64,000 nt of DNA. Source: a virus. The notes below the pieces were generated by a model. That model did not search any database and was not told where the DNA came from. It saw only the letters and a program-made list of their open reading frames with translations. Shown in pieces: positions 4,033 through 63,400 of this stretch. Each line of letters opens with the position of its first letter. Position 1 is the stretch's first letter. A program made the position numbers and the translations under genes. The DNA lies in IMG/VR virus record IMGVR_UViG_3300037042_006682, positions 62,001-126,000 of that record, one strand, 5' to 3'.

Positions 4033-4061
4033 CACTTAACCTACCACTGGAGGTTTGTCAA
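4033..4061 (-). promoter_or_regulatory. Early-type promoter upstream of HTH gene
   Basis: TTGACA (4056-4061), 17-nt spacer, TAAGTG (4033-4038). It overlaps the 3' end of the helicase gene. Confidence 0.65.
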
Positions 4062-7000
4062 CGGCCAGGCACCCCTGCGCTTCCTCCCCCGGCAGCGCCA
4101 CCCCCATGCGGCGATAAAATTTGTCGCGCCCCCTTGCCTTGCGCTCGCTCCACGCCACCTTGGGATCCCGCACGTCCACCACCACCGGCGTGGGCTTGCC
4201 CGTGCACTGCCCCGCCCGCCAGGGGCAGTAGTGCGCGCACTTCTCGGGGGCCGGCGTGCACCACCGCCGCACCCGGCCGATCGCCTGCTCCGCATCCCCC
4301 AGGGGGGTCGCCAGCACGATCACGTCCAGGGCGGACACGTCGAGGCCCTCCGCGACGAGCTGGATCGTGCAGAGCAACACGTTCGCGCGCTCCGCCTCCC
4401 GCAGCGCCTCGCGCGTCAGGGTGCGCTTGGCCTCCCCCTCCTCCACGGTGAACCACTGCCCCGTGTAGGGCGCGATGGCCACCGGGAACGGCGGGGGCGC
4501 CACCTCCAGGATCTTGCGCAAGTCCGCCCGGAACGCCCGCAGGTGCTCCAGCCGATGGCTCACAACCATCACCTTGCGCCCCTTGCGCACCGCGATGGCG
4601 ATGTCCTCCGCGATGTGCCGCGTGCGCGCCGCGTCCTCCCCGAGCTGGCTGATCACCTGCGCGCTGTTCATGCGCATCGCGCTCACCCGGTAGTCCCCGC
4701 GCCGGATCCCCGTCAGCTCGCTGTCCGACTGCAGGAGGCGCACCCCGAACGGCATCGACTGGGCCTGCATGGTGTGCAGGATCGGCCCGATGTGGTGGAA
4801 GAACACGGGCTCCGCCCGATCCGCGCGCCGCGGCGTCGCCGAGAGCCCCAGGCGGTACGCCGCCATGAAGCGGTGCGCCACGCTGCTCCACACCTCAGAA
4901 CCAATATGATGACAATTATGAACAACAATACCACCATCAAGAACATAGGATGGATGGCCCGAGACGCTCAAATTGAAGACATCAACGCAATCTCCATCAG
5001 TGCGGAATCCAAGTCGCTCAAAATCCTCTCGTTGCGCAACCGCAACACCAACCACCCTTTCTCCCTCAAAAAACGATCCTTCTTCGCATCGCGGTCCTTC
5101 GTCTTTACTGAGTGAGAATACCCATCCACCTCGATCGCTAGCTTCATCATCGGATGTGCGACGTCTATCTTGTAGCAATTCGGCAACCTGGATGGATTGT
5201 TCTTCGGCCGTGATGTCAGAACAACGAACTCCGCGATCCATCCATCTCCCAGCGCTTCTAGCAACACACGCTGTGGAACAGGCATGTCGCATCCATTCCC
5301 CCCTCGTTTTTTTAACGGCACAAACCCATTCCTCTGTTTGGTCTCCATAACCTTTGCGATCACGCCAAGCATGCGCATAGGGTTCTTGTCGCGCATACGG
5401 AGCGAAGCGCTTTCCCTCAGCGAAGAATCCTTCGCATGTCTTTCTAGCATCATAGAGGAATACACCGTCGAATGATCCAGCATGTAAAGACTGTGTGCTT
5501 TCTGCTGACAAGACACCGAACAAAACCTTCTTTGCCTCCCCATCAGTTTGTTCTCTCCGCAAAAAGCGCAAAAAGGACGACCATTCATAGTCCTCTGTCG
5601 TATCCCCTGTGCCGAACATGTCATCGAGCAGAACTTCCGTCCCTTCCTGACGCTGTTCTCCTTCCCGCAAAACGCACATGTTCCCGGTGTGTTCTTGACT
5701 GCCTTCTCCATGTTCCATCCTCATCCTGGTGCAATCATCAAAACTTACCAGAACGTCTCCACACAACGAACTGGCATGCTTCCATCCATCAACAGTCAAA
5801 AACGGATGGTTCTTGGTACATACAATATCAACACCACACAAAAGGCTAACAACAACACAATCGCTCACACACACGCTCCGCTTAAAAACATGTTCAACAA
5901 CACCTTCCCCAAGAGCATTAAAAACCGTCATCCCAATCACAACATCCCCAATAGCCACCTTGCCATCTGGGGTATCGATCTTCTGCTCAGCGGGAAAGCA
6001 CTCATCTGAAACGAACAGCCCGAACGCCTCGTACAGGGCGCGCGGGTAGCGCTGCGTCTGCACGTCCTTGGCCAGGGACTGGATCATGGCGATCACGAAG
6101 TCCTTGTCACGGTAGTCGCAGGTGTCCTGGCGCACCACGCCGATCCGCGCGGCCGGCAGCACGTCCCGGATGCGGGCCGCCCACTGCTCCAGGAAGAACT
6201 CCTTGTGGACCACCACGAGCGTGGCCCGCCCCAGGCGCCGCGCCAACTCCACGGCCAGGATGGTGTTATGCGTGGGCACGCAATTCCGCGTCAGGTAAAG
6301 GTGGTTCGGCGCATCAACCGCAATGCACGTTGCCAATCCTTTCCCAATGGCCGTCACAGACTCCACCGCACGCCCGACCTTGCGTTGCCAGCCATTGCGA
6401 TAAAACTCCGCCTTCTTGCGTGAAAATCTAAAGGGGCAAATGTCTGCTGGGAGTTTTATGTGTAGTCGAAAGCTATCAAACCATCGCGAGTGCACTCCAT
6501 CCTTTGTGTATCGCGTCTGACGTTTCACCAGTTTGCACGTACCCCCCAGAGAGAAAACAATCCGCTGGACCGCATGGGCGATCTGGTCTGATACCGTAGC
6601 ATACTCAACACTTCCGCCTCCACTTGCATATCCGTCTGTATCAAACAGTCCCTGGAGAAGGGATACCCGTGTTGCGACAGATCCACCTTCGTAAACTGTC
6701 GGAATAAATTTATCGTGTGCGGTCAGCCCGAGCATGCCTAGCTTGCGCATGCGCTTTCTGAACGATCCTTCTTGTTGACCAAATTTGATCGGTGGAGAAA
6801 AGCGATAAACCGCAGTATAGCCAGCACGTTGCTTGAGTGCCATTACACGATTTGGCGGCTCTACTGTCATCATATCTACGATCTCTCTATCGGGTGTGCA
6901 TACAGAGATCCCATTGGTGTTGCAAAAGTGGCCATCCCCAATGAGAACACCGAGCGTGTATGGCTCAAAAATCATTTCGCCATCTACCCCCTCAAGGGGG

Positions 7001-7707
7001 GCCATCGTTGGAAGCCACAGTAAACGCCCAACGCTCGTGCGCAGAGTCTCCCGCGCTAGGTCATGCGTCGAAATCGTAACCGTTGGCGCATCACGCTTAC
7101 GCCGCTTCACCAGCGTCCACAGGTGATCCCCATCACAATCCACGTGCGTTCCATCAGAAAATGCGACGCGGAATAGGTCGCGCTCCCCCTGCGGGAAGAC
7201 ACCCGTCACGCGGTGGAATCCACCATCGGTGCCTGCAGCCTCGTCACCAACACGCACCTCCTCAATGGAAGTCCATCCGCGTCTAAGCAAGACAGGCTCT
7301 CCGTGCGCGAGCGCCTTCCCGCTCCCGCAGCCCGCGCAGAGGATGCCCCCGCCCCAGGGGTGCGCCGTGAGGCGGTGCTCCAGCACGGCCAGGGCCTCCG
7401 CCTGCTGCGCGAAGGGGCCGTCCGCCCGGTAGCGCGAGGCCATGCGCTGCATGGGCTGCCCCATGCTCACCTGGACGATCTCCTCGTTCTGTCCCTTGGC
7501 CGAGGCGCGGTAGAACCCGCGCGGCACCCCGAAGAGCCCCACCTCGGGGCGGTCCCGGTAGAGCATGAGGGGCTTGGGCTGCGCGACCCCCGCCACGTCC
7601 GTGGTCAGGATCGGCTGCACGGTCAGCGCCGTGCGGAGCGCCCGCAGGTTGCCCTCGCTCAGCGCCCCCCGCTCCAGCCACGCCCACCCGTCGATGATCA
7701 CGCGCAT
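4036..7707 (-). CDS. SF2 DNA helicase (UvsW/RAD25-like) with two inteins
   Basis: One open frame of 1223 codons. Removing two inteins leaves a helicase of about 511 residues. Extein motifs: Walker A GCGSGK|T (interrupted by intein 1), motif II DE|CHH (interrupted by intein 2), motif III GLSATPRR, motif V-like VAEGLDVSALD and motif VI QAIGRVRR. A Cys/His cluster (CTPAPEKCAHYCPWRAGQC) lies near the C-terminus. Such enzymes remodel replication and recombination intermediates. The ATG at 7707 has GGAGGG upstream and starts 16 nt after the tRNA-like gene. Extein codons flanking intein 2 are AT-rich compared with the rest, a sign of co-conversion during homing. Confidence 0.9.
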   Translation of the reverse strand: MRVIIDGWAWLERGALSEGNLRALRTALTVQPILTTDVAGVAQPKPLMLYRDRPEVGLFGVPRGFYRASAKGQNEEIVQVSMGQPMQRMASRYRADGPFAQQAEALAVLEHRLTAHPWGGGILCAGCGSGKALAHGEPVLLRRGWTSIEEVRVGDEAAGTDGGFHRVTGVFPQGERDLFRVAFSDGTHVDCDGDHLWTLVKRRKRDAPTVTISTHDLARETLRTSVGRLLWLPTMAPLEGVDGEMIFEPYTLGVLIGDGHFCNTNGISVCTPDREIVDMMTVEPPNRVMALKQRAGYTAVYRFSPPIKFGQQEGSFRKRMRKLGMLGLTAHDKFIPTVYEGGSVATRVSLLQGLFDTDGYASGGGSVEYATVSDQIAHAVQRIVFSLGGTCKLVKRQTRYTKDGVHSRWFDSFRLHIKLPADICPFRFSRKKAEFYRNGWQRKVGRAVESVTAIGKGLATCIAVDAPNHLYLTRNCVPTHNTILAVELARRLGRATLVVVHKEFFLEQWAARIRDVLPAARIGVVRQDTCDYRDKDFVIAMIQSLAKDVQTQRYPRALYEAFGLFVSDECFPAEQKIDTPDGKVAIGDVVIGMTVFNALGEGVVEHVFKRSVCVSDCVVVSLLCGVDIVCTKNHPFLTVDGWKHASSLCGDVLVSFDDCTRMRMEHGEGSQEHTGNMCVLREGEQRQEGTEVLLDDMFGTGDTTEDYEWSSFLRFLRREQTDGEAKKVLFGVLSAESTQSLHAGSFDGVFLYDARKTCEGFFAEGKRFAPYARQEPYAHAWRDRKGYGDQTEEWVCAVKKTRGEWMRHACSTACVARSAGRWMDRGVRCSDITAEEQSIQVAELLQDRRRTSDDEASDRGGWVFSLSKDEGPRCEEGSFFEGERVVGVAVAQREDFERLGFRTDGDCVDVFNLSVSGHPSYVLDGGIVVHNCHHIGSEVWSSVAHRFMAAYRLGLSATPRRADRAEPVFFHHIGPILHTMQAQSMPFGVRLLQSDSELTGIRRGDYRVSAMRMNSAQVISQLGEDAARTRHIAEDIAIAVRKGRKVMVVSHRLEHLRAFRADLRKILEVAPPPFPVAIAPYTGQWFTVEEGEAKRTLTREALREAERANVLLCTIQLVAEGLDVSALDVIVLATPLGDAEQAIGRVRRWCTPAPEKCAHYCPWRAGQCTGKPTPVVVDVRDPKVAWSERKARGRDKFYRRMGVALPGEEAQGCLAVDKPPVVG
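4915..6000 (-). mobile_element. Intein 2 in helicase DExH box
   Basis: 362 residues spliced in between DE and CHH. It begins with Cys (CFPAEQKIDTPDG, block A), has a block B (TKNHPFLTVDGWKHASSL), and ends with block F (DVFNLSVSGHPSYVLDGG) and block G (GIVVHN), with +1 Cys. The middle has no LAGLIDADG motif in the intein frame. It instead covers a separate endonuclease ORF in another frame (4968-5711). Base composition is clearly lower in GC than the exteins. Confidence 0.92.
4968..5711 (-). CDS. Nested Vsr/DUF559-like homing endonuclease, out of frame in intein 2
   Basis: 247 codons from ATG 5711, in a different frame from the host intein. Two Cys4 zinc-finger modules with a CAFCG...FCSMTC / CAFCG...FCSVSC pattern (about residues 12-32 and 48-68) are followed by a Vsr/DUF559-type PD-(D/E)xK-like core near the C-terminus: KIDVAHP, AIEVDGYSH, KDRDAKKDRFL, GWLVLRLRNERIL. 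This resembles the EDxHD endonucleases found with fractured split-intein genes in phages. It is probably the homing enzyme for intein 2. Its motif density shows it is real coding, so the intein frame across it must be an overprint. Confidence 0.85.
   Translation of the reverse strand: MEKAVKNTPGTCAFCGKENSVRKGRKFCSMTCSAQGIRQRTMNGRPFCAFCGENKLMGRQRRFCSVSCQQKAHSLYMLDHSTVYSSMMLERHAKDSSLRESASLRMRDKNPMRMLGVIAKVMETKQRNGFVPLKKRGGNGCDMPVPQRVLLEALGDGWIAEFVVLTSRPKNNPSRLPNCYKIDVAHPMMKLAIEVDGYSHSVKTKDRDAKKDRFLREKGWLVLRLRNERILSDLDSALMEIALMSSI
6265..7314 (-). mobile_element. Intein 1 in helicase Walker A, LAGLIDADG type
   Basis: 350 residues inserted in GCGSGK|T. The N-terminal residue is Ala rather than Cys (ALAHGEPVLLRRGW), block B is CDGDHLWTL, and the C-terminus is CIAVDAPNHLYLTRNC then VPTHN with +1 Thr. 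Two LAGLIDADG-like motifs, LGVLIGDGH and LQGLFDTDGYA, show an in-frame homing endonuclease. An Ala1 intein must use the alternative splicing route in which the +1 residue or block F Cys attacks first. Confidence 0.92.
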
Positions 7708-7722
7708 GGGGTCTTCCCTCCG

Positions 7723-7803
7723 TGAGCCAGGCGGGCCTCGAACCCGCAACCTCCCCCTCACTGGTACCGTGGGGGCGCGCTACCTACTTGGCGCCACTGA
7801 CCC
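7723..7803 (-). tRNA. tRNA-like gene, anticodon ACC, lengthened anticodon stem
   Basis: Folds as a tRNA: acceptor GGGTCAG/CTGGCTC (wobbles), D-stem GCGC/GCGC with GG in the loop, variable AGGTT, and T-arm GCGGG-TTCGAGG-CCCGC. The anticodon arm is long: CCCCCACG pairs with TGAGGGGG (one A.A mismatch and a G.U), giving about 8 steps instead of 5 and a 7-nt loop GTACCAG with U33 and anticodon ACC (Gly). No CCA is encoded. It could be functional, degenerate or a decoy. Confidence 0.6.
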
Positions 7804-7863: not shown

Positions 7864-8244
7864 TCATTTTTTCTTGTTCTTTAGCCTGTTGATCTCGTGA
7901 TCAGTGTTCGCTTTTCGACACAAGGCACACCGACATCCGTGTGTTTTGTATCCCGACAATGTTCCATGTGATTCCTCTAAGTCGAATTTAGGCTTATGGT
8001 GCAATCTGTTGTGGCATGTAACGCATATCACAACACACTTGGCTAACTTCTCTTCGCGTCGTTTTTCCGACCAAGACCACACCTTGTGGTCAACCTTATT
8101 TTCTGGGTTTAAGTGGTGTACTAATAAATTCACCGACGACCCACACCACACACAAACGGGATGTTCTTTCATCCATGCGTCGCGTCTCCTCTTAATCCAT
8201 TCACGTTGGTAATCACGTTGCTTTTGGCATACTCCGTATCCCAC
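7864..8244 (-). CDS. HNH endonuclease, probably free-standing homing enzyme
   Basis: 126 residues. HNH/zinc core: CVWCG, LLVHHLNPENK, then VVICVTCHNRLHH (about residues 31-82). The C-terminal tail has a SHGTLSGYKTHGCRCALC motif seen as a DNA-binding appendage in phage HNH proteins. Base composition is markedly lower in GC than neighbouring genes, pointing to recent transfer. It sits between a tmRNA and a tRNA-like gene, typical territory for homing enzymes. GTG start; SD weak. Confidence 0.88.
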   Translation of the reverse strand: MGYGVCQKQRDYQREWIKRRRDAWMKEHPVCVWCGSSVNLLVHHLNPENKVDHKVWSWSEKRREEKLAKCVVICVTCHNRLHHKPKFDLEESHGTLSGYKTHGCRCALCRKANTDHEINRLKNKKK

Positions 8245-8271: not shown

Positions 8272-8620
8272 TGGAGGACCTGGCGAGAATCGAACTCGCG
8301 TCCAAGCATACATCCTGCACGTCCTCATCCACAGGCTTGGCGGCGTCGATTGTCCGGGGTGCCGCCGCATCGCCCCTGACCAGGTTTCCCGCCGTATCTT
8401 AGATGGAGCTACTGCGAGTCCTCGCGTCCACCGCACCCTACTTAATGACGTCGGTCCATCGCACTCTAGGGGGAGCACAAAGCCGACGGGCCGAGGCTCA
8501 CGCCGCGGCCTGATACTCCTGCTGTTTGGCATTTGTATGGTGGCGCCTCTATACCCTGTGAGCGCCATCAGGGGCCTGCAAACATGCCATCCATGTGCCT
8601 GTCGAAACCATTTCAGGCCC
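8272..8620 (-). ncRNA. ssrA: tmRNA (one-piece)
   Basis: 349 nt. The 5' end GGGCCTG pairs with 3' CAGGTCC, followed by an encoded TCCA end. The conserved 5' segment GAAATGGTTTCGACAGG and the 3' T-arm GAGTTCGATTCTCGCC are diagnostic. The tag frame (8530-8498) reads A-K-Q-Q-E-Y-Q-A-A-A-stop, a normal length and Ala-rich end for ssrA tags. tmRNA rescues stalled ribosomes and tags products for proteolysis. It follows a terminator, so it needs its own promoter, read-through or processing; no clear promoter is visible in the 30 nt upstream. Confidence 0.94.
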
Positions 8621-12285: not shown

Positions 12286-14301
12286 TTACCTCGGCTTATC
12301 GCCAGTGAAGATCAGCTCTACCACGTCATCGAGCGCGCCCTCGCGGAGGTCGGCCCCTACCATCGCGATCGATACCGAGGTCTCGCTCAACATGTGGATC
12401 GTGCTAGTCTTGAGATACTCCTCCAGCTGGCTTAATTCCCCCCGCCGCCGGGGGATCGCGCTCATATTCGTCGTGATCAGCGTCGTACGGCAGTAGGCGC
12501 CCCGGAAGCGCAGCAGATCGTCTAGCAGGCGCTCCTCGGCCCCCTCCTTGTCGCGCACCCCCTTCCCGAGGTCGTCGAGCACGAGCACGTCCACGTCGAG
12601 GATGCGCTCCCAGAGGAGCTTCTCCCCCTCAAAGCCCTTACTCCCGAACTTGATGTCCTTGAGGGCCGCGGCCTCGATGAACAGCCCCGTGTTCCCGCGC
12701 CGGCGCGCCTCCTTGAGGGCGATCACGGCCGCTGAAGTATTGTGACTAATGACGCCGCTTGACCAAAAAAGATGATCCTTGGGAACTACAAAATCATAAA
12801 CGTCTTGTTTTTTAGATTGCACTACGCTCTTAACCTTAAAATACCTAACAGAAGACATCGAAAGCGACTGTAGCGAAGCAAGATCCTTGTTCCCTGGCAC
12901 TATATCAATCAATGAATCCACAACCCTCTTTAGAACAGATACAGAAATCACTCCTCGCTTAGCTGACGAACTAAAAAGACCGTATAGTTTTTCACCCCAA
13001 AAATACCTTAATCCACGCTTTTCAATCCTTGCAATGGCAAAGCCAGCATCTATTAGTATTCTGTCAATTGTATCCTTTTTTACAGGTACAACAGTCATAC
13101 ACACATTGCTGCTTCTGACTTTATCTGCTGCAACACGCAACAGTTCAACTTTGTCCTTTGTTATATCAGAAAACCCTATGTTCTCCTCAAATGCAACTAA
13201 TGCCTCCCCTGAAATATACAGTCTCCAATACTCACGCTTGATACGCGCCCCATTCGTCGCCATTTTCATACATGGTTTTATTGTTGAATTCACACCAAAC
13301 GCCATTAGTACAATTTGCAGATCCCTAACAAGCCTCTGCGACTTGCTGGTGTACTCGACAACACACCCACAAATCGAGCCATCCCCTGAAAAAAGCGAAC
13401 GCATAAAGCTACGCAAAACACTAGACGGAGAAGACAGTAATGAATCACAGATACAAACACTCTCGCTTGTGCCGCATCCCAATGCAGTCATAAACACATT
13501 CAATTTTTTTCCACCACGTATACTCGTATCAATACATCCGCTCTCTTGAACCACATCATGTCCACGACAAAAACCAAGGCTCTCCATAACGCTAACAACG
13601 TGCTCTGTGGCAAGACTGTTAGAATTTGAAAATACATTCTTACAATTTACCACACGACCCTCAGCTATGAACCATCCGAGCATAGACGCCACGTCACAAT
13701 CAATAACGACATCTCGGTCGCCAATGGTAATGCGCATTGGATCGCCATCGCTGACAACGCAACGAGCATCAACAGCAACAAAATCATCCTCACAAAGATC
13801 TCCCATGCGCACCATGGCATCACCACTATCCCGCCATACACGCACACGGTGTTCCTCTGTCGCCGTGACACACAATCCATTGGACAGTTCCATGCAAAGT
13901 GTAGGCTGTATGCCATCCGCATAAACCTGCGTTGCCACAGCATAATGCCCATCCCCCGCATACACAGGCATTTCCACGGGAGAACACGCCAAAATTGGAC
14001 TCGCCAACGATCCAATCCTATGCAACCGCCCATTGGCTACCACGATCTCTCTATCCGAAAGGCACTTCCCCGTGCCGTTCTTCCCGTGCAGCACGAGGCC
14101 CACGCCGCGCGCCAGCATGTCGTCCAGCGCCACGAGGTAGTTGTACAGCTCCATCTTGTGCAGCCCCGCGCTCACCCCGTCGAAGTGCGCGTCGCGATAG
14201 CGCAAGGGGATCCGCATCCGCTCCATGTCCTTGAGGTTCAGCTGCCGGCGCATCCCACTGCGCGCCTCGGCCACCTGCTCCAGGTCCTGCTCGTCAGTCA
14301 T
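12286..14301 (-). CDS. DnaC-like helicase loader with intein
   Basis: 671 codons; the exteins alone are about 229 residues, the usual DnaC/IstB size. The P-loop GKNGTGK|T is split by an intein. After it come a strand VDVLVLDDLGKG (Walker B), RTTLITTN (sensor 1) and ETSVSIAM. It loads the adjacent DnaB-like helicase onto DNA. Start ATG overlaps the upstream stop region. Confidence 0.9.
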   Translation of the reverse strand: MTDEQDLEQVAEARSGMRRQLNLKDMERMRIPLRYRDAHFDGVSAGLHKMELYNYLVALDDMLARGVGLVLHGKNGTGKCLSDREIVVANGRLHRIGSLASPILACSPVEMPVYAGDGHYAVATQVYADGIQPTLCMELSNGLCVTATEEHRVRVWRDSGDAMVRMGDLCEDDFVAVDARCVVSDGDPMRITIGDRDVVIDCDVASMLGWFIAEGRVVNCKNVFSNSNSLATEHVVSVMESLGFCRGHDVVQESGCIDTSIRGGKKLNVFMTALGCGTSESVCICDSLLSSPSSVLRSFMRSLFSGDGSICGCVVEYTSKSQRLVRDLQIVLMAFGVNSTIKPCMKMATNGARIKREYWRLYISGEALVAFEENIGFSDITKDKVELLRVAADKVRSSNVCMTVVPVKKDTIDRILIDAGFAIARIEKRGLRYFWGEKLYGLFSSSAKRGVISVSVLKRVVDSLIDIVPGNKDLASLQSLSMSSVRYFKVKSVVQSKKQDVYDFVVPKDHLFWSSGVISHNTSAAVIALKEARRRGNTGLFIEAAALKDIKFGSKGFEGEKLLWERILDVDVLVLDDLGKGVRDKEGAEERLLDDLLRFRGAYCRTTLITTNMSAIPRRRGELSQLEEYLKTSTIHMLSETSVSIAMVGADLREGALDDVVELIFTGDKPR
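12739..14064 (-). mobile_element. Intein in helicase-loader P-loop, LAGLIDADG type
   Basis: 442 residues, from Cys1 (CLSDREIVVANG) to GVISHN with +1 Thr. Block B is TATEEHRVRVW; LAGLIDADG motifs LGWFIAEGR and RSLFSGDGSI mark an in-frame homing endonuclease. GC is much lower than the exteins, and the first C-extein codons (ACT TCA) share that bias. Appears intact and splice-competent. Confidence 0.93.
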
Positions 14302-14887
14302 GGCGTCCACCGCCCTCCGGGCCGTCCCACTCGTCAAAGTTCTTCTTGCGCTCGCGCGCCTCGTCCTTCGCCGCCCCCTTGCGCGGCGCCCGCAGCGCGG
14401 GGACCTCGCCCCGCAACTGCCAGGCGTCGAAGACGCGCCCCCGCGCAGCATACAGCATATCGATCGTGGGGGGATCCCCCTTGGCCGCGCGGGCCATGGT
14501 CGCCTCGACCACAGCGCGCACGAGGTCCCAGCCGTACTCCTGCACGAGCAGCTTGGCCCAGCGCTTCTGCACGACGGTCCAGGCCGGGGGCTGGTAGTCC
14601 TTCCCGTAGCGCTCCTGCATGGCCCCCCGCCATACGCGCGCTACGTCGCCCGCGTTGCGGGCCCGCGCCGCTGCCGCTGTGGCATCCGCCGCCGCGGTCT
14701 CCACCTGCGCCGCCGTCATGGACTCCGCCCCCTCGAGGGCCCGCGGGGCCCGCCCCTCGGGGCGCTGCGCCCGCATCACCGCCTTCAGGGCCCGTGCCGC
14801 GAGCGACCGCGCCTGCGCCTCAGCCGAGATCGCCTGCAGTTCCGCGAGCCCCGGCCGCCGCCGCGTTGTCGTTGGATTCTGTGTCAT
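14294..14887 (-). CDS. Probable replisome organiser / loader partner
   Basis: 197 residues; Ala/Arg-rich helical N-terminal half, then a compact domain (WTVVQKRWAKLLVQEYGWDLVRAVVEATMARA) and a charged tail. Directly upstream of and overlapping the DnaC-like loader, the place phages often encode an origin-binding or replisome-organiser protein. No motif proves this; the call rests on position. Confidence 0.5.
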   Translation of the reverse strand: MTQNPTTTRRRPGLAELQAISAEAQARSLAARALKAVMRAQRPEGRAPRALEGAESMTAAQVETAAADATAAAARARNAGDVARVWRGAMQERYGKDYQPPAWTVVQKRWAKLLVQEYGWDLVRAVVEATMARAAKGDPPTIDMLYAARGRVFDAWQLRGEVPALRAPRKGAAKDEARERKKNFDEWDGPEGGGRHD

Positions 14888-34067: not shown

Positions 34068-34364
34068 TTAGGCCTCCGTGGGCGCCACGCGGTCCGCGGG
34101 GCGCGTCCCAATGCAGAACGCCATCTCCCCCGTGGAGCCGTGGCGCTCAATGTACCACTCCGCATACGCCGTCCGCGGGGGTTCCCCCACGCGCTCCCAG
34201 AGATCCGCCACGAAAAAACACCCCTGTCCCCCACAGAACCGCGCCCGGTGCTCCGGGGCATAGCAGGGATGCCACTGCATCGCGGGGGCCCACGCCAGGG
34301 CGCCCCCGCAGTCCGGGCACTCCCACCGCAGGGCCGCCTCCACACACACCTTGATCTCATGCAT
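34068..34364 (-). CDS. Zinc-ribbon protein
   Basis: 98 residues: WECPDCGGAL early, CGGQGCFFVADLWERV later, forming a probable zinc site. Unknown. Confidence 0.5.
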   Translation of the reverse strand: MHEIKVCVEAALRWECPDCGGALAWAPAMQWHPCYAPEHRARFCGGQGCFFVADLWERVGEPPRTAYAEWYIERHGSTGEMAFCIGTRPADRVAPTEA

Positions 34365-34716
34365 CGCGGCCCCCCTGCGACGGATTCCCCACGCCGCACA
34401 GGGCCAGCGCCCGCTGGTCCTCCTCGCTGGTGATGGCATCGATCGCCCGCTGTCCCCCCCCCGCCGCCGTGGGCAAGGGCGTCACCGTGAAGATCGCAGC
34501 GGGAGCCGCCACCGGCCCCTCCCCCATCCCCTTGGCAGCCTGATAGGTCAAGATCGCGGCAATCAACCGCTGCTGTGCCGGCACACTGTGGGGATCCATC
34601 AACAGCTCCGTGAAGCGGTACGACACCGGCCGCGCCCCCGGATCCCCCGCCAGGGCTTGATCCTCGATGGTCTTCCCATGCACTCGTATCCACGCGATCG
34701 CCTCGTCATAGGTCAA
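34357..34716 (-). CDS. Hypothetical helical protein
   Basis: 119 residues (YDEAIAWIRVHGKTIEDQAL, QQRLIAAILTYQAAKGM). TTG start overlapping the previous stop with GGAGG upstream. Unknown. Confidence 0.5.
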   Translation of the reverse strand: MTYDEAIAWIRVHGKTIEDQALAGDPGARPVSYRFTELLMDPHSVPAQQRLIAAILTYQAAKGMGEGPVAAPAAIFTVTPLPTAAGGGQRAIDAITSEEDQRALALCGVGNPSQGGRDA

Positions 34717-35303
34717 AGGGCCTCCTCCGTCGGCCACGCCGACGAGATCTGCAACGGGATGTACGGATACCAGATCGTCCCTGGCAGCAGGTCCGGTGGC
34801 GGCACGATCGGCGACGGGTACTGCGACTGGTGCAGATCGAGGGCGGACACCGTAAGCCGCATCACATGGACGCGCATCTCAGGGCACTCCTCGATCTCCA
34901 ACCCCGTCACCGTCGCCTTGGTCATCGCCACCGCATGGTCATAGCGCGCCCAGCCCCGCCACCCCTCCCAGCCCCCAAAGGCCTCAGGGTCGTTGAACTG
35001 GGCGACCACCAACGCGCCGCATGCTGGCGGTGCCCGGAAATGACGATTCACCCAATCGAGGAACGCCTCCTCCCGCCGGATAATCCCGCCGAACACCAAC
35101 TCGGCCGCCTGCATCCCATGCCGCGCCACGTGATCGGCCACCATCTCGAGGGGCAGATGGTCCGTCGTCACGCTACCCCGTGCATACCCATAACGGGGCA
35201 CCTCCCGCTGGATGCGCACCACGCACTCCTGCGCCACCGCCTGGATCCACCCGCTGGAGACATCCTCCGTCTGGAAGCTCAACCGATACCGCACAGGACT
35301 CAT
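34713..35303 (-). CDS. Hypothetical protein next to thymidylate kinase
   Basis: 196 residues, mixed alpha/beta (RYRLSFQTEDVSSGWIQAV; VHVMRLTVSALDLH). TGATG coupling with tmk. Unknown. Confidence 0.55.
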   Translation of the reverse strand: MSPVRYRLSFQTEDVSSGWIQAVAQECVVRIQREVPRYGYARGSVTTDHLPLEMVADHVARHGMQAAELVFGGIIRREEAFLDWVNRHFRAPPACGALVVAQFNDPEAFGGWEGWRGWARYDHAVAMTKATVTGLEIEECPEMRVHVMRLTVSALDLHQSQYPSPIVPPPDLLPGTIWYPYIPLQISSAWPTEEAL

Positions 35304-36004
35304 CGCGTTTCCTCCTGGTGCCGCGCGCACCGCGCCCACGCCTCCGGGGTCAGGCCCCGGTCGAGGTCCGCCCAGACCGCATCCTGCACCGCCTCGGCCG
35401 CCAGCGTCCCGTCAACCCGCTTGACCACCCCCGTATCCAGCGCCACGTCCCACACGAAGCTGTGGTAGGCCGCGACGACCTTCTGGTGGAACGTCTGCTC
35501 CTCGAACCGATCCGGCAAAAACCCGCGCGCCCGCACCCGTTGCCAGAACACCCCAGCGGGCCCGTCCAGGATGAACGTCATGTCCGGCGCCACCCACCAC
35601 GGCACCTCGGGCACCCCGTGATCCCGCGGCACCCCGGCCCGCACCTCGCGCGCCAGGGCCATCATCCGCTCCAAGTGCCCCCCCTCGGAGAGCCCCTGGT
35701 AGACCACCGTCGAATGAAAGAACCGATCGCAGACCACGACTACGCCCTGCCGCAGCAGGGGGCGGATCACGTGCTCCACGTGCCAACAGCGGTCCGCCGC
35801 GAAGAGGTGGGCGAGCCCCCGCCAACTGAGGTGCACGCCACCCCGCAGGTACTCCCGCAAGGTATGGCCGATCGGCCCGTGCGAGGGCTCTGCCGTCGCC
35901 TGCGCCGCGATCCCCATCCCCTGTAGCCGAGCGACCAGCAGCGCGGTCTGCGTCGTGGTCCCCGCGCCATCCGCACCCTCGAATACGATGAACGGCGCTC
36001 TCAT
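35300..36004 (-). CDS. tmk: Thymidylate kinase
   Basis: 234 residues. FEGADGAGTTTQ is the P-loop in the thymidylate-kinase form (EG.DG.G.TTQ; Thr where Lys-Ser/Thr is usual). VVCDRFFHSTVVYQG gives the DR(Y/F) substrate-binding motif and MTFILDGPAGVFWQRV the LID-proximal strand. It phosphorylates dTMP to dTDP, feeding phage DNA synthesis. The P-loop lacks the canonical Lys (GADGAGTTT), so activity needs testing. Confidence 0.82.
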   Translation of the reverse strand: MRAPFIVFEGADGAGTTTQTALLVARLQGMGIAAQATAEPSHGPIGHTLREYLRGGVHLSWRGLAHLFAADRCWHVEHVIRPLLRQGVVVVCDRFFHSTVVYQGLSEGGHLERMMALAREVRAGVPRDHGVPEVPWWVAPDMTFILDGPAGVFWQRVRARGFLPDRFEEQTFHQKVVAAYHSFVWDVALDTGVVKRVDGTLAAEAVQDAVWADLDRGLTPEAWARCARHQEETR

Positions 36005-60451: not shown

Positions 60452-63400
60452 TTAGTACCGCGTGATCTGATTGGGCATCCGTGCGTCACACGGATCGGGG
60501 ATGAAATTCTGCTTATACTTCGCCACCCCCACATGACACTGGAAGTTGCTGATCGATCCCGCCATCGACCGACTCGCCGCCTGCGCATCATTGAAAAACG
60601 TCGGGGTTGCCGACGAGGCCCCGACCAACGTCGTCGTCGTGACGCTCTCGGACATATAGCCATTCTTAAACATCTTCAACGAGGACCCACTGCGCACGAC
60701 CGCGATATGCGTCCACCCAATACCGAGAACCGACGAATTCACGGTCGCCGCCAAGGTCCGCGTAACATCGTACAACATCGCCTGGATGATTTTGCCTGTC
60801 GTCTGGACAATCTGGAACCCATAGTTGTTGCCCCCCATCAAGGCGCATCCCCCCACCACGATCCCATACACCCCTGAACCGGGGGCACTCGTCAAGTGGA
60901 CCCAAAACTCAATCGTGAAGTCCCCCGCCCCCAACGACAGCGGCATCCGAATGGCCGTCTGTGGCACGACCTCTACACCAAACGCCACGACCCACCACGG
61001 CTGGCTCATCGACCCGTTACATTCAATCTTTGGAGACGCTTTTACTGTCGGAGATACCTTGCGCGACCCATGCACCCAATGCTGGCACTCCGCCGTGTAG
61101 GCCCGGCGATACTGATCCACCGTGGTCGGCGGCGTAAAGGCCCCCGTCCACAACGCCTTGCCCACAAAGATCCGCAACTGGTCGGCATACCCCGCCGTCG
61201 TCTCATTCGTCGTCCCATACGCTGCCCACCCCAACGCCACCCAATTTATGAGGGAGTAGTTCGACGCGACGACCTGCGAGCACACGGAAACCCCACCGAC
61301 ATACAGCGTGATCGTCGTTCCCACCCGCACTAACGCGACGTGCTGCCAGACATTCGCGATGCGCGACGTATACGAGGGCACCACGTACTGGACCGATCCG
61401 TTATAGACGGAAAAACAGAAATAACCGCTAGTGTTGGTGTAAATCCGGATCGCCCCATATGTCTCCACCGAACTTAACGGCCAATTACACGAATTCACAA
61501 ACAAATCGAATTCCGTTAAACTGTATGATCCTCTTGTCCAGAAATCGACCGTAAAATCCTGCGTACCAAAGACCGTCCCATTGACCGGCGTCGCGATCCA
61601 CCCCGGTGTCGATAAAACATCATGACTGAATTCAGCCAGTGCAACACGATCATACGGCATCACCTGCGTCGTCCCCGTCAAAAACTCGGGTGACACCGAG
61701 GCAATACTACCGCTATGCACGAAATCCCGCCGATCCGTCGGCGGCGTAAAACTGGTCGTCCACAAGGCCGTCCCCTTCAACACCTCAACACAGGCAATGG
61801 CCCCCAAGATCAACTGCTGTCCCGACGGATTAGCCCCCCCACTATCTCCAATGGTAAAATACCCGGACATGTTGTCCCAATACTCGGTGCTCGATGTCTC
61901 GCTGCCCCCACTAACCCCGTCAATATAGACCGTCGTCGTCGTCCCACTGCGCACGATCGCCGCGTGATGCCAATTACCATCATTAAGCGTCACGCCTGCG
62001 CGGGAGGCCGTAATCGCGTGCTCCGTTGCCCCCGCATTGACCGCCTTCCATCCCAGTTGTGTCGCACTATTGATCGACAGACGGAACGCCACGCTCGTAT
62101 TAGAAAGTGCCACACCACGGTTCAAAAGAATCTTAGGGTACGCCGTCCCCGCATAACGAAACCACAGGTGGATCGTGAAGGGGTCATTGGCTAGGTAATA
62201 CTTGTTCCCCGTACCAGCTTCATAAATGGCTTCAAACTTTGTAAAGTCAAAGGCCGTCTGGACACAGCACGCCCGCGCCCCCGACTGGAAGGCGATCGCA
62301 TACCCCATGCCCCCAAAAGTGCGGTGCATCCGTTGATAGTTGGATGTCCCCCCCGTGCTGATCAGCCCCGCCGGACGCTCCGCCCGCCGGGCCATCGACC
62401 CCCCCGTATTCGTCGCGACCGTCCCGCCCCTGACGGGCATCCCGCGATACTCGGACAAGGTTCCCCCCAAACTACCTGGGAAACTCATCCCATCGGGGCC
62501 AGCATCCACCAGACGAAAGCCCAACCCCACCTCTACACTATTCCCACGCAGGAAGAACTTGACGTTGCTCATCTCCGCGTAGTCCGCCGTGGTCACCGGC
62601 GGCGTAAAGGGCGCCGTCCACCGCGCAGCGGCCGTGAACCGTATGTTCACCATCCTGCCATAATGGAACGCCGCCGACACACTACCCACCGTGAACGGTT
62701 GAGACGAAGACAGGCTCTGCCACGGCGTGGGTTGTGAACTGTATGCCGGTTCCACCCCGTTGACATACAACTTCCCCTGTCCCGCCCCCATCCCACTGCG
62801 CACAAAGGCCACATGCGTCCATTTACGTTGCGGCACCACTCCGGCCACAGAGACGACCGCATCCCCCGTTCCGCACGATAACGCCCCCGTTTTGGTCACC
62901 AGGAAAGAGTAATCGCTCGATCGACTGCAAATCTCGGTAATATATTGACTGGCATTATTCCACTCGCTGAACACCCAGGCATCCAACGTGTAATTCCCGT
63001 ATCCTAGGTTAAACGGCGTGGTGCTACTCGTCTGGGCATACCATGTGGCTTCCAGGTGTTCCAATTGCTCTTCATCATCGACGAACACCACCGAACTGTT
63101 CTTACGCAACATTTTTGTGGGCGGCGCGAAGTCCCCCGCATACAACGCCTGACCAATCGCAATGCGCAAACCAGCAATCTTGCCAAGAAAATAATTAACC
63201 GCTGTATAATATCCAGTAAACTCCGCCGCTAACATCAATGGGGCACTTGTAAATTCCAAGACCGAGGAACCAATGCTAAAGGTCTCTGTCTTCCCATCAA
63301 TGGCAAACAACAGACTGCTACCCACACGACTGATCGCCACATGGTACCATCGAGACAACTCTAGCGTTACCGTACTATCCACAGTCACCGTCGCCCCTGA

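Follow-up and report, generated by a model that had tools for sequence, protein, structure and literature searches.

A putative homing endonuclease gene nested out of frame within a contiguous helicase intein of a phage, and its relatives

Genes fractured at split inteins and associated with EDxHD endonucleases were reportedly described by Dassa et al. in 2009 (NAR 37:2560), a paper cited in PMC3229294 and PMC12350094. In conventional inteins, the endonuclease is a domain within the spliced polypeptide. The closest prior art for the present locus is the ShiLan domain which, like the Pacc40 gp60 insertion, occurs in mycobacteriophage DNA methylases, encodes an HNH endonuclease out of frame and is not an intein (Arsenault, Gosselin, Gogarten 2025, PMC11855218). 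How the hidden gene is translated was posed as an open question for the ShiLan insertion, where no ribosome-binding site was found (PMC11855218). The stretch investigated here (the window) comprises 64,000 nucleotides of the IMG/VR virus record IMGVR_UViG_3300037042_006682, positions 62,001 to 126,000, and contains a helicase gene with two inteins, the second of which (intein 2) harbours a putative homing endonuclease gene in another reading frame. This arrangement resembles the ShiLan insertion in that an out-of-frame endonuclease lies within a stop-free insertion of a phage gene and shows a patchy distribution (PMC11855218). Unlike the ShiLan insertion, which has an HNH nuclease and no splicing blocks, the carrier is an intein with a splicing domain, the nuclease is DUF559/Vsr-like and internal Shine-Dalgarno (SD) sites are enriched. 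A Vsr-like endonuclease fold and a gp41-1-like splicing domain are shared with the fractured-gene systems, and fractured members occur inside the present family; in the window and in 127 further loci, however, intein and host gene are unsplit and the endonuclease is overprinted rather than intergenic. Conventional inteins, for instance intein 1 of this helicase with its LAGLIDADG domain, have the same splicing blocks and expected homing cycle, but the endonuclease of intein 2 has a gene of its own in a different frame. In the literature, no out-of-frame endonuclease inside a genuine intein was found, although a 2025 preprint, 'Actinobacteriophage Inteins: ... Non-Canonical Architecture', whose contents were not read, may overlap.

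The SF2 (ResIII-type) helicase open reading frame (ORF) extends over 4036-7761 on the minus strand, as do all window features given below, and encodes 1241 amino acids (PF04851, E=1.7e-12). Intein 2 (4915-6000; 362 codons) is situated directly 3′ of the Walker B 'DE' codons (SDE^CFPAEQ...GGIVVHN^CHH). Its N-terminal splicing half (5731-6000; residues 1-90) and its C-terminal splicing half (4915-5070; residues 311-362, terminus VVHN) were modelled with a predicted local distance difference test score (pLDDT) of about 97 and about 96, respectively, while the linker between them (5077-5706; residues 99-308) is predicted to be disordered (pLDDT mostly 38-55). Both halves adopt the HINT fold in the AlphaFold model, with the gp41-1, DnaB and RecA inteins as top matches in the Protein Data Bank (PDB). 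Of these, gp41-1 (6QAZ) ranked first (E=2.5e-6; profile match E=6.6e-19); it is naturally split, whereas intein 2 is contiguous. The class 1 residues C1, H65 (block B), H361 (penultimate) and N362 (terminal) were invariant in 38 sequences, and the +1 Cys is present in intein 2. Frame 0 of the helicase is uninterrupted over 4036-7761; host gene and intein 2 thus form one ORF and not a fractured gene with a split intein. The linker is nearly coextensive with the nested gene (4968-5711; 247 amino acids), which lies in the +1 frame relative to intein and helicase (7761-5711 = 2050, remainder 1). The nested gene encodes two Cys4 motifs (5508-5678; C12/15/28/32 and C48/51/64/68) and a DUF559/Vsr-like catalytic core (4986-5174; residues 180-242) with the family-invariant residues E194, D196, H200, D208 and K211, and it matches the Pfam family DUF559 with E=8e-12 (45.4 bits versus a curated cut-off of 20.6). 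An earlier sequence-only reading of the window had claimed a contiguous intein with splicing blocks at both ends and 362 open codons, an out-of-frame ORF with two Cys4 motifs and a Vsr/DUF559-like core, and overprinting of the intein frame by the endonuclease with the halves unseparated. All of this was borne out, with exact coordinates and no stop codon in frame 0.

Intein 2 is very probably a mobile intein consisting of two genes on one stretch of DNA, a splicing domain with a stop-free linker in frame 0 and a DUF559/Vsr-like endonuclease with its own ribosome-binding site in the +1 frame. The two frames, their selection regimes, their recurrence, the internal ribosome-binding site, an empty allele and a co-conversion footprint were demonstrated computationally; splicing, cleavage and homing are inferred. 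Frame 0 would supply the helicase together with a splicing domain of the gp41-1 type, which would excise itself after translation and whose two halves are connected through a presumably meaningless, stop-free linker. From the +1 frame over the linker, a DUF559/Vsr-like endonuclease with zinc fingers would be translated as an independent protein, initiated at the internal ribosome-binding site. This enzyme would cleave helicase alleles that lack the intein at the Walker B codons, and the whole intein would be copied in during repair. Selection preserves the endonuclease protein and excludes stops from the linker. The arrangement shows how a single stretch of DNA can be shared by a host gene and a selfish gene.

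The endonuclease frame gave an AlphaFold model with a pLDDT of 87.7, and its predicted fold is Vsr-like in the catalytic region. The comparison with Vsr-like homing endonucleases suggested in the sequence-only reading yielded the catalytic domain of I-Bth0305I (3R3P) as top PDB fold match (probability 1.00; Foldseek E=3.4e-3; template modelling score, normalised by target length, 0.66-0.69). In profile comparison, the endonuclease family was nearer to 3HRL, a DUF559 protein (E=3e-12), than to 3R3P (E=3e-4). The residues E194, D196, H200 and D208 were invariant across 49 members. I-Bth0305I is an EDxHD enzyme of similar fold, but it derives from a mobile intron, and 3R3P aligns EVNG at the ExDG motif of the family and has no His at H200. 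A GAGG Shine-Dalgarno-like site (5719-5722) lies 7 nucleotides 5′ of the nested ATG (duplex -7.4 kcal/mol). Over all nested loci, strong anti-SD duplexes (-7 kcal/mol or better) were found at 37% of the first ATGs of the nested ORFs and at 9% of inner ATGs (p=9e-15). The endonuclease could alternatively be made by programmed +1 frameshifting and remain attached to the N-terminal splicing half, as the universal +1 phase of the nested loci would allow. However, a TGA in the endonuclease frame (5721-5723) is located 3 codons upstream of the nested ATG, and the median distance of such in-frame stops was 5 codons over the 128 nested loci. Because these stops are so near to the ATG, there is hardly any room to enter the +1 frame upstream. 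Together with the SD sites at the first ATGs, this makes a frameshift product very unlikely, and independent initiation at the nested ATG appears far likelier.

Synonymous shuffling of the endonuclease codons gave a mean of 11 stops in the intein frame, and 0 of 1000 shuffles were stop-free, while the observed number is 0. That an absence of stops might be an inherent trait of such nucleases was ruled out by the codon usage of ordinary DUF559 genes, which have a T in the third position before AA, AG or GA at 37%, and by free-standing relatives of a second nuclease described below. In the phase used, all stops have the form NNT|AA, NNT|AG or NNT|GA and can be removed silently, as changing NNT to NNC never alters the amino acid. 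In the other sense phase, 95 of 103 nucleases would carry at least one unavoidable TGA, wherever Met precedes K, N, T, I or M. The long overlap can therefore last, since every stop in the used phase is avoidable by a synonymous change. As the sequence-only reading had proposed, synonymous and non-synonymous patterns of both frames were compared in homologues. In 14 close pairs, differences at endonuclease codon positions 1, 2 and 3 amounted to 513, 511 and 1042. Changes silent in the endonuclease but altering the linker were 1.8 times as frequent as expected (858 versus 482), whereas changes silent in the linker but altering the endonuclease reached only 0.67 of expectation (327 versus 491). 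The Vibrio phage pair 1.194.O/1.088.O showed 5, 0 and 32 differences by endonuclease codon position. These counts show that the endonuclease frame is under purifying selection, and that the linker is unconstrained apart from staying open. Intein and nuclease distances were correlated (Mantel r=0.58; 0 of 2000 permutations as high), indicating that common descent contributes to the shared phase as well.

Relatives were collected by scanning viral contigs and bacterial genomes four times, with alignments of nucleases as queries. When the window endonuclease served as a single-sequence query, viral contigs gave no matches, whereas the alignment queries were successful. After removal of duplicates and ordinary DUF559 genes (among them plasmid matches, which were rejected as family members on that account), 141 distinct nucleases remained, the window and phage records included. 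A total of 128 were nested in a contiguous intein in the same +1 phase without a single intein-frame stop, and 126 of these had the ExDG..H motif. The other 13 (8 free-standing, 4 fractured and 1 in frame) had 8-31 stops, and no locus with 1-7 intein-frame stops was seen among the 141. Nested loci ranged from about 30 to 67% G+C and were found in many phage contigs and several bacterial phyla. 'DE' preceded 70 of 74 well-delimited inteins, and the host genes examined encoded SF2 helicases, ATPases of the DNA polymerase III delta-prime/gamma-tau type and one Strawberry-notch-like protein. Free-standing members adjoined intein-less helicases (L097, L171, L180). In annotated phages, tblastn located the nuclease at +1 in helicase inteins of Pseudomonas phage MR14, Vibrio phages CP-T1 and 1.194.O and Corynebacterium phage phi673, each at the same DE^CF site; MR14, CP-T1 and phi673 are isolated phages with complete genomes. 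The nuclease was unannotated in 40 of 41 matching phage records, where the host helicase or a neighbouring protein was annotated instead; such nested genes are thus invisible to current annotation. The family provides numerous natural examples of long overlaps between genes on one strand, with one of the two frames selected solely for openness. It also suggests an answer to how homing endonucleases hidden in another frame are expressed, by means of an internal ribosome-binding site, and kept, by synonymous avoidance of stops. Two mycobacteriophage matches (L006, L007) were ruled out as further cases, being antisense to annotated genes and not inside inteins. In Mycobacterium phage Fishburne (L006:3962-4759; likewise L007, Camster), a DUF559/Vsr-like nuclease with several Cys4 motifs runs antisense to the annotated gp58; in these cluster P phages it is flanked by two parts of a DNA methylase gene.

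The helicase of a sister phage (L274; 168.5 kb) is 97% identical in protein sequence and lacks both intein 1 and intein 2. Window and sister phage differ at 49 of 1538 aligned extein bases, and 16 of the 49 differences fall within -25 to +23 of the intein 2 junction (49 nucleotides; p=1.3e-13). They are dense in the 5′ flank (6001-6025), interpreted as co-conversion, and in the 3′ flank (4891-4914), which carries the +1 Cys in the window and Met in the empty allele. Across the junction, VVDE|MHHVG in the sister phage corresponds to VSDE|CHHIG in the window, which suggests that the catalytic +1 Cys came with the intein. The clustered differences are the footprint expected of homing with short co-conversion, so that the element is present or absent at one site in near-identical alleles with apparently co-converted flanks. 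No copy of the nuclease was detectable in the L274 record, in a search made without a calibrating positive control. In Vibrio phages with near-identical helicases, the same site is occupied either by a nested intein (K391, 1.194.O) or by a mini-intein without nuclease (K457), and in a 65% identical helicase homologue of Vibrio phage 1.118.B it is empty. An annotated endonuclease gene lies immediately 3′ of the K457 helicase with the mini-intein (L276, 2582 onward). Homing endonucleases often decay after fixation, and intein 2 might accordingly be a merely inherited passenger whose endonuclease no longer cuts. Its ORF, ribosome-binding site and active-site residues are intact, however, its presence is polymorphic relative to a 97% identical allele, and the co-conversion footprint appears fresh, which leaves a dead endonuclease improbable.

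Several points weigh against intein 2 as a mobile intein of two genes. Some of the junction differences could in principle reflect local adaptation to splicing instead of an imported tract. The branch leading to the window endonuclease is long, its best relative having 44-46% identity. The scans were led by nested queries, and because sampling was similarity-led the proportion of 128 in 141 is no census and no population frequency. One family member is in frame (L259, 1 of 141), a kind of homologue that the sequence-only reading had named, beside an assembly indel, as speaking against the arrangement. Such a homologue would also fit an endonuclease whose frame was displaced through a sequencing error, or one in decay. 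The two intein halves, however, share the frame of the helicase, so that a pair of compensating errors would have to be assumed; the +1 phase is found again in 127 further loci, among them complete genomes of isolated phages, the catalytic residues are intact and the family is under purifying selection. An assembly indel is excluded on these grounds, the chance of an indel or pseudogene is practically negligible, and the single in-frame homologue leaves the out-of-frame arrangement of the window standing. The contig with this in-frame DUF559 intein, in a UvrD-type helicase (L259:3401-4900), also holds an out-of-frame nested member in another gene (L075).

In four loci (L198, L199, L201, L202), with 14-26 intein-frame stops, host gene and intein are divided into two ORFs. 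The ORF with the N-terminal half stops shortly past block B and the ORF with the C-terminal half restarts inside the 3′ end of the nuclease gene; the intein halves are in mutual register, and the nuclease is still at +1 and overlaps both. These loci form one clade (Shimodaira-Hasegawa approximate likelihood ratio test 100) among nested loci in an unrooted tree. Such features fit a route from nested to fractured genes by relaxed stop avoidance, although the unrooted tree does not give the direction. With gp41-1 as best PDB match and fractured relatives of this kind, the link to fractured genes drawn in the sequence-only reading was confirmed. Its further suggestion, that the locus might be a step between a contiguous intein and a fractured gene with a split intein, fared less well. 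The register and phase of the four loci are as expected from stop accumulation in a nested ancestor, their single clade lies among nested ones and the splicing domain is nearest to gp41-1. The nested state is nevertheless overwhelming in number, spread over the whole tree and free of stops, and is therefore common and stable rather than transitional; loci with 1-7 stops were not seen and the tree has no root. A short-lived transitional form is accordingly unlikely, though less so than the other alternatives. The family illustrates a concrete path by which fractured genes and split inteins could arise, and its contiguous and fractured natural relatives of gp41-1-like inteins may serve protein engineering.

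A second overprinted intein was found in the same phage, outside the window, in a terminase-like ORF (G000:C1 32386-37830), where it occupies 34141-35907 after another 'DE'. A nuclease with NUMOD3 repeats (448 codons; 34242-35585, minus strand) lies at +1 inside it, with 0 intein-frame stops versus 9.4 expected. The sister phage lacks this intein, and the free-standing relatives of the nuclease all have 7-68 stops in the corresponding frame. Because two unrelated nuclease families share the same phase, the findings argue for a general rule of overprinting in one phase, although two cases are few. There is perhaps an even chance that overprinted inteins form a general class, in which two or more unrelated endonuclease families (DUF559/Vsr-like and NUMOD3-repeat, both in this phage) lie over intein linkers, always in the sense phase whose stops are removable by synonymous NNT to NNC changes, and which gives rise to fractured genes and to natural split inteins such as gp41-1 once the linker frame may gain stops. 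The surrounding region (G000:C1:29335-37830) is rich in inteins, with three in the one terminase-like ORF and one in a neighbouring ORF of 1011 amino acids.

Intein 1 of the helicase (6265-7314; 350 codons) is conventional, with an in-frame LAGLIDADG_3 domain, and occupies the Walker A site (GSGK^ALAHG...PTHN^TILAV). An ORF for a DnaC-like helicase loader (12286-14451) is interrupted by a further intein, in which LAGLIDADG-like motifs are apparent in frame. The phage also encodes a transfer-messenger RNA (8272-8620) with the predicted tag AKQQEYQAAA. Between this gene and the helicase lies a small HNH-like ORF (7864-8244) with no Pfam match; the sister phage is without this segment and has a tRNA-Lys at the corresponding place.
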